DNA from: Sorangium cellulosum | GTDB taxonomy: Bacteria; Myxococcota_A; Polyangia; Polyangiales; Polyangiaceae | Length of the DNA stretch: 64,000 nt | Assembly: GCF_002950945.1 (NCBI RefSeq) | Contig: NZ_CP012673.1 | Coordinates: 12,081,501-12,145,500 of the forward strand | Reading direction: 5' to 3' | Shown: positions 46,967-52,950 of the stretch, piece after piece | Numbering within the stretch: the first letter of the stretch is position 1 | How the letters are laid out: each line of letters starts with the position of its first letter | Program-made: the position numbers and the translations under genes | The notes under the pieces: generated by a model | The model's database searches: none | What the model was told of the DNA's origin: nothing | The model's input: the letters and a program-made list of their open reading frames with translations, nothing else

Positions 46967-48133
46967 TCAGCGCGCCGCCGACTCGAACCGCGGCGCCGCC
47001 TCGAACGTGTCCGCCAGCGTCCGCCGGTACTCGTCGGCGATCTGCACGAGCCCGTCGATGAGCAGCGCCGCGTCGTGATCCGAGAAGCCCTCCAGCGACG
47101 CCACACACGACACCGACACCTCGTCGCCCGCGACCGACACGCGGAACTCCCCCGTCGTCTGGTCGTTCATCGTGAGCAGGAACCGGTAAAACGGCTCGTG
47201 GTGCGCCGCCGGCAGGCCCACGACGGGCGCGCGCAGGATCAGGAGGCAGCCCGCCTCGTCGATCTCGATGTCCACCTGCGTCGCCATCTCCGCCGACGGG
47301 AACGGCCGCTGCGCGATGCGCCACGCCCTCGGGCCGACGCGCGCCCGGTTGGCGGCGATCCCGAGCGCCGACAGCGCCTGCCGGATCACCCGCTCGACGC
47401 CCGCGCGCGCCGGCGACGGCGCGAACGCGTGCGGCAGGAGCCGGCCGCAGCCGAGGCAGCGGTCCTCCTCGATGTCGAACGGCTCCTCGCACGCCGGGCA
47501 CCGGTACACCGGCGCCCGATCCCGGAGCTCGAGCAGCGACCGGTCCAGCGGCGCGAGCAGCGGCTGGAGCAAGCCCGCCGGGAGCACCACGCTGTGGCCG
47601 GGCAGCTCCCCCGCGGCGAACGAGGGCGCCGCCACCAGCCCGAGCACACGCCCGTCCACGTCGAGCACCGGCGCGCCGAGCGGCGCCGCGAGATCGAGCT
47701 CGAACGCGGGCAAGAGGCCGTCGATCTTGCGCTGCACCTGGCAGACCCGGGCCACGGCGAGGCGCAGGCTCTGCCCGGGGAGGCAGCTCAGCACCGCGAC
47801 GCGATCGCCGAGCCGCGGCTCGGCCGGCGCACGCACGGCGAGCGCCGGCACGCCGGTCGGCTCCCCCGGCGCGACGAGCGCCACGTCCCGCGAGACGTCC
47901 GCGGCGATCACCCGCCCCGGCAGGCTCCGCCCGTCCTCGAAGACCAGCGCGACCTCCGTCGGGTAGCCGAGCCCGCGCCGGCTCGCCGCCACGACCCCGT
48001 TGCCGAGCGCCACCCAGCCCGTCGTCGAGAGCGCGCCGGCGCGGATCGCCACGATCGAGCGGCGCGCGCGGGCGACGCGCTCGTGGAGCAGCGCCAGATC
48101 GCCGTCGCCGTGCGCCGCGATCTGCCCCGTCAT
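46967..48133 (-). CDS. Trypsin-fold protein with apparently lost catalytic residues, zinc ribbon and C-terminal YbjN-like domain
   Basis: 388 residues. Residues about 30-190 follow the HtrA/S1C pattern (RSIVAIRAG, GNGVVAAS, SRDVALVA, LGDRVAVLSC, DLAAPLGAPVLD, GRVLGLVAAP). The His position reads ASRRG instead of the usual NAHV, and the Ser position reads LGAPVLD instead of GNSGGP, so the protease is probably inactive. A zinc ribbon follows (CPACEEPFDIEEDRCLGCG), then a C-terminal beta/alpha domain (VDIEIDEAGCLLIL, YRFLLTMNDQ) like the YbjN/type III chaperone fold. The ATG overlaps the upstream gene's stop (ATGA, 48130-48133), so the two are translated together. Confidence 0.78.
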   Translation of the reverse strand: MTGQIAAHGDGDLALLHERVARARRSIVAIRAGALSTTGWVALGNGVVAASRRGLGYPTEVALVFEDGRSLPGRVIAADVSRDVALVAPGEPTGVPALAVRAPAEPRLGDRVAVLSCLPGQSLRLAVARVCQVQRKIDGLLPAFELDLAAPLGAPVLDVDGRVLGLVAAPSFAAGELPGHSVVLPAGLLQPLLAPLDRSLLELRDRAPVYRCPACEEPFDIEEDRCLGCGRLLPHAFAPSPARAGVERVIRQALSALGIAANRARVGPRAWRIAQRPFPSAEMATQVDIEIDEAGCLLILRAPVVGLPAAHHEPFYRFLLTMNDQTTGEFRVSVAGDEVSVSCVASLEGFSDHDAALLIDGLVQIADEYRRTLADTFEAAPRFESAAR

Positions 48134-49971
48134 TGGGCCACGATCCTCGAGAGCGCCGTCATCAGGAGATCGATCGTGCCCGGCTTGGCGCCGTCGCGCT
48201 GCGCGTACGCGACGATGTCGCGCAGCCGCTGCTCCGTCTTGGCGGGCAGCTTCGTGCGCACGAGCAGCTCCGACAGCGCGCCGATCGCGAGGAAGTGGCG
48301 GAGCATCGGATCGGCCGGCGCGCGCTCGATCTCGCGCAGGTAACGGCCGAGGTGCTCGCGCGCGAGCGCCGCCGTGGTGAGCGGGTCGATGTGCAGCGGC
48401 TTCTCCTCGGGCACCTGGCCGCGCGCGGCGACGAGGCGCTCCATCGCCACGAACGCCGGCTCCGCCACGCCCGCGGTGCTCGCGCGGCGCGCGCCGCCCT
48501 CCGCCTGGACGAGCTCCCGGGTCGCGGCCGCCGTGCAGCGGTAGAGGTGCGCCACCGCGTCCGGCAGCGCGTCGCCGTAGTCGAGGATCGCCCGGAACAC
48601 GGTGCACCGGATGAGGAGCACCATGACGCCCGGCCGCTCCTGGAAGCTCAGCGCGTTGCCGAGCAGCTGCGCGTCGCGGAGCAGCTGGCAGAACCGATCC
48701 GCCGTCGTGTTCGGCGACTCGGGGCGGGACGGGAGACCCCGGCGCGAGGGAGGCTCGATCTCGACCTCCGGCAGCGCGGGCGGGCGCACCGACACCGGCG
48801 TCACGGCGGCCATGGCCAGGTTCGAGGCCGAGCGGCGGAACGGGACGGTGCGCGCATTCCGGCGATCGCTGGCCTGCGCCGGGGCGTCCGCCGCCGGCTC
48901 GGACGAGACCGGCGCGGCGGGCGGCGTGGCCGGCGCGACGGGCGGCGTGGCCGACGCGGCGGACGCCGCCGAAAGCTTCGCCGCGCCCCCCTCGGACGCC
49001 GGGAGCCCCACGCCGCCGAGCGACTTCGGCGCGGCGCCCCCGTCCTGCGCGGGAGGGAGGATGCCGCCCCGGGACGGCGCGCCGCCGTTCCGGCTCGACG
49101 TGATCGGCGCCGGCACCGACACGAACGAGGGGGACAGGATGTCGGGGATCGCGTCCACGTCGCGGCTCGGGCGCGCGACCGACTCCGGCAGGCGCGGCAA
49201 GGGGGGCGCGGCCCACGCCGAGGGCTCGCCCGAGAGCGGCTCGTGCGGCGCCCGCACCACCGAGACCGGCGGCGGGGCCGCGGCGACCCGCACCGACGGC
49301 GGGCTCGCCGGGCGGCCCGGCCCCGGCGGGAGCGAGAAGCTCTTGAGCGGCCGCGCGCGGCCCGCCGACGCCCACGTCAGGCTCGCCCGCTGCTCCTCGG
49401 AGAACGGCGGGCGCGCATCGAACCAGGCCGCCATCGTCGCCTCGAGCCGCGACGCCGCCTCGCCGCTCTCGCGCAGCGCGCGCCGCAGCGCCTCCGGCGT
49501 GAACGACGCGACCCGGCCGACGCGGCGCAGCAGCACGAGATCGTCCCGGATGCAGAGCCGGAACGGCTCGGGGCCGCCGGACAGCTCCAGCGCCGTCCGG
49601 AGCAGCGGCATCCGGTGCCGCTCCGCGATGCGCGCGACCGGCGCGTCGATCGACATCCGCTCGTTCGCCGCGTCGAGCGCGACGAAGAGCGTCGCCTCCG
49701 CGAGCGGGACGATCCACCCCACGCCGTCCTGCAGCGTCGTCGTCTGGACGTTCGTCCCCGCCTCCGCCGAGGCGCAGTGGGCCACGAAGCGCACCGGATC
49801 CCGCGTGCGCCACGCCTCGACGGAGCCCACGTCCCGGTCCACCTCCGCCGGGGGCGGCTTGCGGGAGACCGCCGGCGACCGGTCGACCCCGCACGCCTCG
49901 CACCGCGGCCCGCGCAGCGGAAAGCCGCACGCTGCGCAGAAGTCGGAGGCCGGGCTCGAGGGGACCGCCAC
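48130..49971 (-). CDS. Zinc-ribbon protein with YbjN-like domain, partner of the inactive trypsin-fold protein
   Basis: 613 residues. An N-terminal zinc ribbon (CAACGFPLRGPRCEACG) is followed by an alpha/beta domain of about 130 residues (VGWIVPLAEATLFVAL, PFRLCIRDDLVLLRRV) of the same general type as the C-terminal domain of its partner. A long Pro/Ala/Ser-rich region and a helical C-terminus (about 420-613: LGNALSFQERPGVMVLLIRC) complete it. The function is unknown. Gene overlap and the shared zinc-ribbon/YbjN theme suggest that the two proteins form one complex. Confidence 0.7.
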   Translation of the reverse strand: MAVPSSPASDFCAACGFPLRGPRCEACGVDRSPAVSRKPPPAEVDRDVGSVEAWRTRDPVRFVAHCASAEAGTNVQTTTLQDGVGWIVPLAEATLFVALDAANERMSIDAPVARIAERHRMPLLRTALELSGGPEPFRLCIRDDLVLLRRVGRVASFTPEALRRALRESGEAASRLEATMAAWFDARPPFSEEQRASLTWASAGRARPLKSFSLPPGPGRPASPPSVRVAAAPPPVSVVRAPHEPLSGEPSAWAAPPLPRLPESVARPSRDVDAIPDILSPSFVSVPAPITSSRNGGAPSRGGILPPAQDGGAAPKSLGGVGLPASEGGAAKLSAASAASATPPVAPATPPAAPVSSEPAADAPAQASDRRNARTVPFRRSASNLAMAAVTPVSVRPPALPEVEIEPPSRRGLPSRPESPNTTADRFCQLLRDAQLLGNALSFQERPGVMVLLIRCTVFRAILDYGDALPDAVAHLYRCTAAATRELVQAEGGARRASTAGVAEPAFVAMERLVAARGQVPEEKPLHIDPLTTAALAREHLGRYLREIERAPADPMLRHFLAIGALSELLVRTKLPAKTEQRLRDIVAYAQRDGAKPGTIDLLMTALSRIVAQ

Positions 49972-50089: not shown

Positions 50090-52081
50090 TCACAGGAACG
50101 GGTTCAGGTGGAGCGCGACCTTCGCCTGCCGGAGGTTGTACTGGACCCTGCGGACGAAGTGGATCATCAGGTACACCCACACCGCGAAGGTCACCACGCT
50201 GATGACGAGCTGGACCGTCGGGCTGACGTCCACGCCGACCACCATCCAGAGCGCCGTCAGCAGGAATGCCCCGAACGAGAGCGGGACGAACCACTTCCAG
50301 CAGAGGTTCATCATCTGGTCGATCCGGACGCGCGGCAGCGTCCAGCGGATCCAGATGACCACGAAGACGAGCGTCCAGCTCTTCAGCAGGAAGAGGAACA
50401 CACCGAGCAGCTGGAGCGCGAAGCTCGCCTCCTGCTGCGCGGGCGACACGCCGGGGATCTGCCAGCCGCCGAGGAAGAGCGCGCTCGCGATGCCGCACAT
50501 CACGAAGACGTTCGCCCACTCGGCGAAGAAGAAGAACAGGTACCGCATCCCCGAGTACTCGGTCGAGTAGCCGGCGACGAGCTCGCTCTCCGCCTCGGGC
50601 AGGTCGAACGGCGCGCGGTTGCCCTCCGCGAGCGCCGTCGTGAAGTAGAGGAAGAACAGCGCGAACGTGATCGGGTTGCGGAAGACGAACCAGTACCAGG
50701 GCCAGCCGCCCACCTCGAGGAGCGACGCCCCGCTGCCCCCCTGCGCGCCGATGATGTCCTGGAGCCGCAGCGAGCCCGTCATCATCACGACGCACACGAT
50801 CGCGACCGCGCCGGGGATCTCGTAGCTGATGATCTGCGCCGCCGAGCGGATCCCGCCGAGCAGCGACCACTTGTTGTTCGAGGCCCAGCCGCCCGTCATG
50901 AGGCCGATCGTGACCAGCGAGGTCACGGCGATGACGAAGAGGATGCCGATGTCGAGGTCGGCCGCGATGAGGTACTGCCCGAACGGCATCACCACGAACG
51001 TGGCCGAGACGCCGACGAAGACGAGGTAGGGCGCGAGCCGGAAGAGCGTGCGGTCGCTCTCGGCCGGGATCACGTCCTCCTTCAGGATCGACTTGATCCC
51101 GTCGGCGATCCACACGAGGAAGCCCTGCGGCCCGGCGCGGTTCGGGCCGATGCGCGACTGCATCCGCGCCGAGACGCGGCGCTCGACCCAGGTGATGATC
51201 CCCGCGGTCGGCGCCATGAAGAGCAGGATGATCGCCGCGGCGATCCCGAGGAGGATCCCGGCGCCGAGCAGATCGGTCGGGGCGCTCGCGTGGAACCCCT
51301 CGGTCGAGATCTGGAGCTCGACCGGCGCCCCGCCCCGCCGGACGCCCACGGCCGCGAGCCGCTCGTGGCCGCTCGGGATCACGTCGCCCCGCGAGAGCAC
51401 CTTCACGCCCTCGAAGCTCGTGAGGACGTCGCCCGGGAGGATCTGCGCCCGCTCCGCCGGGCTCGCGGGGCGCACGCGCGCTACGACGAGCCCGCCGGAG
51501 GGCGGCGCGTCGGCCGCGACCTCGACGCCGAGGAACTCGAGCGCGCGCGCGCCCTCCTTCTCACGCGCCTCGATGACGGCGCGGCGCGGGGTCGGCGGGA
51601 TGAAGTCGATCGTGACGCCCCGCACCGTGCCGGCCACGGGCAGCGCCCCCTGCAGGGTCGCCGGGATCTCGACGATCACGTCCCCCTGGAAGGTCGTGTG
51701 CACCGCGTCGTCACCGCGGCCGGCGAAGCGCGCCTCGAGCCCCTCGGAGAAGGTCAGCGAGACCTTGTTGCTGCTGACCTGCGCGCCCTCGATCTGGATG
51801 TTCTGCTGCGTCAGCGGCGCCTGGCCGGGGCGCCGGAGCGTCCCGCGGAACGTCACGGTCGCCTCCTTCGCCTCCGTCGTGGGCAGGTTCGTCCCCAGGA
51901 TCTCGATGCGGTCGCCGAGGTCGACCTCGCGCGGCACGACGTCGACGACGTTCAGGAGCTCCGGCGCCGTCCGGCTCCGGCCGCAGCCGGCGCCGAGCAG
52001 CGCGACGAGGGCCAGGAGGTAGTACGGCAGGACGCGGCGAGGGAGCGCGCAGGAGGCTCCGGGGCGTGTCGATCCGCGCAT
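50090..52081 (-). CDS. nuoH: NADH-quinone oxidoreductase subunit H with N-terminal lipoprotein/PDZ extension
   Basis: 663 residues, about twice the normal NuoH. Residues 1-33 form a lipoprotein signal ending in LLGAGC (Cys33). Residues about 45-190 are beta-rich and IPT/TIG-like (VPREVDLGDRIEILGTNLP). Residues about 200-280 look like a PDZ domain (GLVVARVRPASPAERA, PGDVLTSFEGVKVLS). NuoH follows from about 285: ITWVERRVSARMQSRIGPNR, GPQGFLVWIADGIKSILKED, ISYEIP, EGNRAPFDLPEAESELVAGY, and eight membrane segments. NuoH forms part of the quinone site and proton path of complex I. No other nuo gene is in this window. It starts 8 bases after the ABC ATPase gene. Confidence 0.88.
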   Translation of the reverse strand: MRGSTRPGASCALPRRVLPYYLLALVALLGAGCGRSRTAPELLNVVDVVPREVDLGDRIEILGTNLPTTEAKEATVTFRGTLRRPGQAPLTQQNIQIEGAQVSSNKVSLTFSEGLEARFAGRGDDAVHTTFQGDVIVEIPATLQGALPVAGTVRGVTIDFIPPTPRRAVIEAREKEGARALEFLGVEVAADAPPSGGLVVARVRPASPAERAQILPGDVLTSFEGVKVLSRGDVIPSGHERLAAVGVRRGGAPVELQISTEGFHASAPTDLLGAGILLGIAAAIILLFMAPTAGIITWVERRVSARMQSRIGPNRAGPQGFLVWIADGIKSILKEDVIPAESDRTLFRLAPYLVFVGVSATFVVMPFGQYLIAADLDIGILFVIAVTSLVTIGLMTGGWASNNKWSLLGGIRSAAQIISYEIPGAVAIVCVVMMTGSLRLQDIIGAQGGSGASLLEVGGWPWYWFVFRNPITFALFFLYFTTALAEGNRAPFDLPEAESELVAGYSTEYSGMRYLFFFFAEWANVFVMCGIASALFLGGWQIPGVSPAQQEASFALQLLGVFLFLLKSWTLVFVVIWIRWTLPRVRIDQMMNLCWKWFVPLSFGAFLLTALWMVVGVDVSPTVQLVISVVTFAVWVYLMIHFVRRVQYNLRQAKVALHLNPFL

Positions 52082-52089
52082 GGGGCCGC

Positions 52090-52950
52090 TTATAGATCGC
52101 GCCGCTCAGGCGGTCGAGATTGCGGCGGGAGGCGCTCCGGCTCGGCCGGAGACGGGCCGCGCGCGCCGCGGACCGGGAGGAAGTACCGGCTGCCGTCGAG
52201 CTCGTTGACGCCGACGTAGAGCTCCGCGTCGAACGCGTCCTTCAGCCGGCGGTAGGTCATCACCTCCTCGATGGCGCCGTGGGCGAGCAGCCGCCCGTCC
52301 TTGAGGAGCGCCACCCGGTCGGCGTACTGGGCGGCCGCGTTGAGGTCGTGCAGCACCGTCACGCAGGCGAGGCGCCGCTCGGCCACCTCCCGGCGCACGA
52401 CCTCGTGCACCTCGATCGCATGGCGGATGTCGAGGTGGGCCCCGGGCTCGTCGAGGATCAGCACCCGCGCCTCCTGCGCGAGCGCGCGGGCGATGGCGAC
52501 CCGCTTCTGCTCTCCCCCGGAGAGCTCGGCCACCGGCCGCCCCGAGAGATCGAGGAGGTCACACCCGCCGAGCGCGCGCAGGACGGCCTCCTCGTCGCGG
52601 CCGGAGGCGCGCATCCAGGCGCCCTGGTGCGGCGCGCGGCCCATCATCACGACCTCGCGCACCGTGAACCCGGGCGCCGAGGGGATCCCCTGCGGCACGA
52701 CCGCCACGCACCGGGCGATCGCCCGCCGGTCCATGCCGGCGAGCGGCCTCCCCAGGAGCCTCGCCTCCCCCCGCGCCGGGCGCAGCGCCCCCGAGAGCAC
52801 CCGGACCAGCGTCGATTTTCCGGCGCCGTTCGGCCCGAGCACCACGCACAGCTCGCCCGCGCGCACATCGAAGCAGATCCCCTCCAGCGCCAGCCTCCCG
52901 GCGGGATAACGCGCGGTCACGTCACGCAGCTCGATCGCCGGCTCCTCCAC
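52090..52950 (-). CDS. ABC transporter ATP-binding protein, iron-chelate/haem/B12 type
   Basis: 286 residues. Walker A GPNGAGKST, Q-loop VVPQG, signature LSGGEQKRVAIARALAQ, Walker B VLILDEPGAHLD and the His switch TVLHDL are complete. The sequence around RAPHQG and HDLNAAAQYADR resembles the FecE/BtuD/HmuV group that powers uptake of iron chelates, haem or cobalamin. No permease or binding protein is adjacent. The nuoH fusion gene begins 8 bases downstream, so they are probably cotranscribed. Confidence 0.9.
   Translation of the reverse strand: MEEPAIELRDVTARYPAGRLALEGICFDVRAGELCVVLGPNGAGKSTLVRVLSGALRPARGEARLLGRPLAGMDRRAIARCVAVVPQGIPSAPGFTVREVVMMGRAPHQGAWMRASGRDEEAVLRALGGCDLLDLSGRPVAELSGGEQKRVAIARALAQEARVLILDEPGAHLDIRHAIEVHEVVRREVAERRLACVTVLHDLNAAAQYADRVALLKDGRLLAHGAIEEVMTYRRLKDAFDAELYVGVNELDGSRYFLPVRGARGPSPAEPERLPPQSRPPERRDL

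Follow-up and report, generated by a model that had tools for sequence, protein, structure and literature searches.

The window analysed here, a stretch of 64,000 nucleotides from the soil myxobacterium Sorangium cellulosum, holds a gene in which the complex I subunit NuoH stands behind a lipoprotein signal, a beta domain and a PDZ domain, and this raises the question of which enzyme such a subunit belongs to and what its head may be doing there. Complex I is usually pictured as a strictly conserved redox-driven pump, with few additions to the outer side of its core subunits in bacteria.

Architecture of the fused gene

The frame of the gene, hereafter the fused nuoH, runs exactly over the coordinates in Table 1, starts with ATG and has no internal stop in the open frame list and its translation; the fusion is real. 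As the initial annotation had proposed, a complete NuoH lies in frame behind a lipobox and a PDZ-like domain, and Pfam matched NADHdh (PF00146) to the core with 373.6 bits (curated cut-off 27) and PDZ_2 to the head with 33.4 bits (cut-off 27). Its description of the gene was right except for the strand, which is minus, the name IPT and the term orphan. A cysteine in a lipobox follows a hydrophobic signal, the sequence criterion for a lipoprotein, and this pattern was present in 29 of 36 closer and 16 of 20 distant members against 10 of 131 control genes, with the Cys33 column nearly invariant in an alignment of 26 sequences.

The domain behind the signal is predicted with high confidence to be a compact beta domain (AlphaFold2 model of the N-domain, mean pLDDT 93), which upholds the beta part of the earlier label. 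The IPT part was not upheld, as the Pfam search of the fused protein gave no IPT/TIG match, and the fold search with the N-domain was dominated by PDZ domains and yielded no nameable family. The PDZ domain resembles those of DegS and HtrA2 (VIA-align Z about 11, rmsd 2.0-2.6 over about 80 residues) and the glycine of its carboxylate-binding loop is invariant among the aligned homologues, so that profile, fold and binding loop are all those of an HtrA-type PDZ. In the full-length model (pLDDT 78) a helical membrane domain comes after the head, and the closest solved relatives of the core are NdhA/NuoH (E 1e-78). The window protein, the NuoH of the organism's other complex I (set A, below) and cyanobacterial NdhA are identical at 85 core positions, which include the GPxRxGPxG loop region and the PFDxPEAExELVAGY loop.

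Table 1. Features of the fused nuoH locus, in window coordinates
Feature	Position	Strand	Basis or remark
Fused nuoH gene	50090..52081	minus	663 aa; open frame; homologues across Polyangiales
Signal peptide, residues 1-32 (predicted helix 17-30)	51986..52081	minus	PROSITE-type lipobox pattern
Lipobox Cys33 codon, predicted lipidation site	51983..51985	minus	Alignment column
Predicted extracytoplasmic beta domain, residues 44-160 (about)	51602..51952	minus	AlphaFold2 domain model
PDZ domain, Pfam stretch 184-257, carboxylate-binding loop around Gly185	51311..51532	minus	PDZ_2
NuoH core, residues 282-610	50252..51238	minus	PF00146
Cytoplasmic quinone-site loop TM1-TM2, residues 303-345, contains RIGPNRAGPQGF...KSILKED	51047..51175	minus	Residue comparison
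Acidic loop, residues 485-517, contains RAPFDLPEAESELVAGYSTEYSGM	50531..50629	minus	Residue comparison
Metal-chelate-type ABC ATPase	52090..52950	minus	8 bp upstream of the fused nuoH; conserved neighbour

Two complex I sets in one genome

The genome, a single contig of 14.56 Mb, contains exactly two NuoH genes. One of them belongs to set A, a full 14-subunit complex I encoded at two loci (nuoABCDGHI at ~1.02 Mb and nuoEFJKLMN at ~7.21 Mb). The initial annotation had suggested looking for an ordinary nuoH inside a full nuo operon; a second NuoH does exist in a full complex I, but it carries a multi-helix insert and its set is split over two loci. In this set A NuoH (589 aa; L004:8803-10572, genome position 1.027 Mb) the quinone-site loop is interrupted immediately behind GPNRA by an insertion of about 140 residues, for which several hydrophobic helices are predicted, and partial-match patterns suggest that the insert recurs across the order. 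Set A NuoL (L051:10388-12916) ends in a tail of about 90 residues of beta-type sequence.

The other set, B, is encoded as nuoABCD at ~14.268 Mb, nuoIJK at ~12.896 Mb (12.897) and nuoLMN at ~12.186 Mb, and together with the fused nuoH of the window it amounts to four loci with one gene each for A, B, C, D, H, I, J, K, L, M and N. As set B is complete but for NuoH, the window gene is the NuoH left over for it; by gene content it is the only NuoH available to this second complex I of the 11-subunit type, whose NuoB, NuoD and NuoI are present in the same genome. The claim that the gene is an orphan thus holds only for its surroundings: no other nuo gene lies in the window, where the genome-wide searches with NuoD, NuoL/M/N, NuoJ, NuoK and NuoF gave no second complex I match. 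A single NuoF gene was found genome-wide, and set B may share the NADH module of set A. We infer the assembly of set B into one complex from its gene complement, its co-retention and the gene clusters of relatives, since nuoIJKLMN of set B form one cluster in two relatives with an intact core (G137 and G141) and the order nuoH-L-M, with the fused nuoH, recurs in several. The fused nuoH adjoins other nuo genes in no live genome examined (live and dead are defined below). A partial second copy of the set B NuoD (85%) was seen in one relative at G134:C2:1003334-1003657, a few kb from nuoABCD.

Additional domains on NuoL and NuoM

Beyond what the initial annotation had covered, two further membrane subunits of set B carry extra, predicted outer domains. 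Where the fused NuoH has a head of about 270 residues, NuoM has at its N-terminus a signal-like segment with about 130 residues of beta-type sequence and NuoL an insertion of about 150 residues, and both add-ons were also found in relatives. Neither matched a Pfam family above cut-off, with weak DUF1573/HYDIN-like matches only, and a PEGA-like identity considered for the NuoL insert got no support. Charged loops mark the likely orientation of all three proteins: nine Lys/Arg residues in the TM1-TM2 loop after the head of NuoH, RYQDDRKLR after TM1 of NuoM, and KKASAGMKAFVVNR ahead of the helix that precedes the insert of NuoL. The three heads are accordingly predicted on the outer (periplasmic) side, in agreement with the outward-facing N-terminal half first proposed for the fused protein, whose lipobox is conserved in relatives.

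Live and dead forms among the relatives

We scored the homologues of the fused NuoH at the 85 positions defined above and called them live or dead, the latter term meaning that complex I chemistry looks lost and nothing more. Twelve live genomes keep 93-100% of the positions, all 12 acidic residues and the whole LPEAE loop, whereas 20 dead genomes keep 20-69% and have their loops eroded or deleted. The two functional loops were also compared: 85-100% of the 13 canonical positions of the quinone-site loop are kept in the 12 live genomes and 15-62% in the dead ones, and the acidic loop retains 19 of 19 canonical positions in every live genome against 5-42% in the dead, with single acidic residues still kept in a few dead cores. 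The identity of the N-domain to that of the window overlaps between the two states (45% in the live G137, 60% in the dead G108).

The state of the core is matched by that of the redox arm. Set B NuoB, NuoD or NuoI occurred in 12 of 12 live genomes at 64-99% identity, and all three in nine; the other three are fragmented (220-510 contigs), G092 and G115 showing only NuoI and G110 only NuoB/NuoD. None of these three set B proteins was found in the 28 dead genomes searched, where the best matches (NuoD at most 46%, NuoB at most 56%) are as expected for set A or a third set, nor were set B NuoJ and NuoK found in the eight dead genomes checked. Gaps in metagenome-assembled genomes could hide genes, though several of the dead genomes consist of one contig. 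The quinone cavity of the E. coli enzyme is formed by NuoH together with NuoB and NuoD (PMC8357420); because NuoH shares this cavity, we take the disappearance of NuoB and NuoD along with the NuoH loops to mean that quinone chemistry was lost. In several dead-type genomes there is also a third set of complex I genes, whose NuoH is of the ordinary standalone kind (G057:C3:247-274 kb; similar in G051, G063 and G034).

What the dead genomes retain is the fused NuoH and often the decorated NuoL and NuoM, that is, the subunits with outer domains. At the nuoLM locus that the dead, single-contig G131 shares with the window genome, the decorated NuoL and NuoM are kept and NuoN is gone. Dead NuoL and NuoM have lost most or all of the lysines, histidines and glutamates of the proton path, Glu144 being lost from NuoM in all eight dead genomes examined and from NuoL in all but G131. 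The decorated NuoM was not found in the dead G120, G126 and G136, beside the fused nuoH or beyond it, so the three decorated subunits do not necessarily work together in every case.

The metal-chelate ABC ATPase that had been reported just upstream is indeed there on the same strand, and it adjoins the fused nuoH in many live and dead genomes. It has no permease beside it, and in G098 it overlaps the fused nuoH. The conserved adjacency raised the idea that the two form a transporter pair, which found no direct support. An uncharacterised gene (48130-49971) lies downstream of the fused nuoH and occupies the same place in G134, G109, G131 and G098.

Descent and selection

The distribution of states could be read in two directions. 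Degenerate forms are spread through most of the order and reach into parts of the class, live forms being confined to a part of family f1, and this would suit a degenerate ancestor onto whose beta-PDZ protein a canonical NuoH core was later spliced when complex I was acquired in part of the family. Such replacement by recombination is the main rival to repeated loss, and we regard it as rather unlikely. In the core tree, live and dead cores form one clade (support 100/100) separate from NdhA, from set A and from 14 standalone NuoH of this order, the dead branches being long and the live ones short. Against the same rival, live and dead cores have in common the stretch AQGG-PW-W-FRNP, which is absent from standalone NuoH, and the LPEAE motif can still be traced, in eroded form, in dead cores.

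These sequences are best explained by repeated loss from a live ancestor, because a canonical core once lost is unlikely to be rebuilt. On the N-domain tree the live and dead states need four changes, at least three of them forced by supported branches, and G131 and the genus of G098 are placed among live genomes. The gene for a mannose-1-phosphate guanylyltransferase lies next to nuoABCD in six live genomes and next to the fused nuoH in dead genomes from several families, a pattern that differing erosion of one ancestral cluster would be expected to leave.

Selection was gauged by simple pairwise Nei-Gojobori estimates of dN/dS, which gave 0.07-0.16 for the core and 0.15-0.56 for the N-domain in live pairs, the core being more constrained, and 0.06-0.31 and 0.04-0.34, respectively, in dead pairs. 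On these estimates the dead proteins are maintained under purifying selection and are not decaying. That the fused NuoH has already become non-respiratory in the window organism, like its degenerate relatives, might be argued from its distance to the other nuo genes and from relatives that live without the redox arm. This is quite improbable in view of the intact canonical residues, the slower evolution of the live core relative to the N-domain, and the matching A-D, I-K and L-N genes, which are intact in the same genome and in relatives. An orphan pseudogene is ruled out by the intact residues and by dN/dS well below 1.

A profile of the N-domain gave full-length matches in most sampled genomes of the order Polyangiales and also, elsewhere in the class, in families f17 and f18; in the rest of the phylum it matched PDZ segments only. 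The distant members keep the beta-PDZ head and usually the lipobox, and hardly anything in their membrane part apart from PW-W-F-P and LGGW can be recognised as NuoH. A GTDB-wide scan returned deltaproteobacterial/Myxococcota records only, using a single peptide pattern from a narrow alignment that misses many members. It is very improbable that the added domains are neutral passengers without function: the N-domain does evolve faster than the core in live genomes, but it is retained throughout the order and also by two distant families of the class, and under purifying selection in dead pairs it outlives the enzyme. An assembly or annotation artefact, which the initial annotation had linked to absence of the fusion from relatives, has virtually no chance of being right, as the same in-frame fusion occurs in dozens of independent assemblies, nothing was found in its favour, and a frameshift is excluded by these assemblies and the absence of stops.

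A putative periplasmic platform

From the fusion, its domain content, the gene complement, the pattern of loss and the signs of selection, it is likely that the fused nuoH encodes the NuoH of the set B complex I and bears a periplasmic platform separable from respiration, the enzyme having later been lost in most relatives. The N-terminal signal would be exported and most likely lipidated at Cys33, the beta domain and the HtrA-type PDZ would then be periplasmic and stay above the membrane arm at its heel, with the rest of the chain passing into the membrane as an ordinary NuoH. The NuoH head, the NuoL insert and the N-terminal domain of NuoM may together form the platform on the membrane arm, where the PDZ would probably take hold of the C-terminal peptide of a client protein in the envelope or the membrane, thereby docking complex I or holding a separate complex. 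The enzyme half seems intact in the window organism. Most relatives appear to have lost the redox arm and the proton path and to have kept the fused NuoH, often with the decorated NuoL and NuoM, under selection without the enzyme, which favours a platform task separable from respiration. For most Polyangiales we lean slightly towards a periplasmic machine that neither pumps nor carries out redox chemistry, built of degenerate NuoH together with NuoL and NuoM where these are kept; complex I would have been exapted repeatedly for another task, and the live form of the window would represent the intact ancestor type.

Three of the four largest membrane subunits bear extra domains predicted to lie on the outer face, and across a bacterial order the enzyme appears to have been lost more than once, with selection continuing to act on the decorated subunits. 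These proteins may serve as natural separation-of-function variants that show which tasks complex I subunits can perform when electron transfer is absent, and they caution that annotation of NuoH, NuoL and NuoM in these genomes does not equal complex I activity.

Comparison with known systems

NuoH, PDZ domains and lipoproteins are each known already. A 2025 survey of complex I variants covers fused B, C and D subunits, its main text being without Myxococcota or Polyangia (PMC12361115). Our search of the open-access literature found no description of the fused NuoH or of a degenerate complex I in myxobacteria, nor did it turn up the combination of NuoH, PDZ and lipoprotein, the matching add-ons of L and M or the repeated persistence of these subunits once the enzyme was lost.

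With NuoH/ND1/NdhA (PF00146) the window protein shares a complete core, intact quinone-loop and acidic motifs and the predicted helix pattern (about 268 bits to cyanobacterial NdhA), but it differs in its lipoprotein-beta-PDZ head and in a gene that lies apart from other nuo genes. Set B, with A-D and H-N and no second NuoF, resembles the 11-subunit complex I without NADH module of the cyanobacterial and plastid NDH-1 type; unlike that type, it is spread over four loci, has predicted outer domains on H, L and M, and shares its genome with the 14-subunit set A, a potential source of NuoEFG. The PDZ of the fused NuoH has the fold and carboxylate-binding loop of the HtrA/DegS type, whereas it is joined to a multi-helix membrane protein and has no protease domain.
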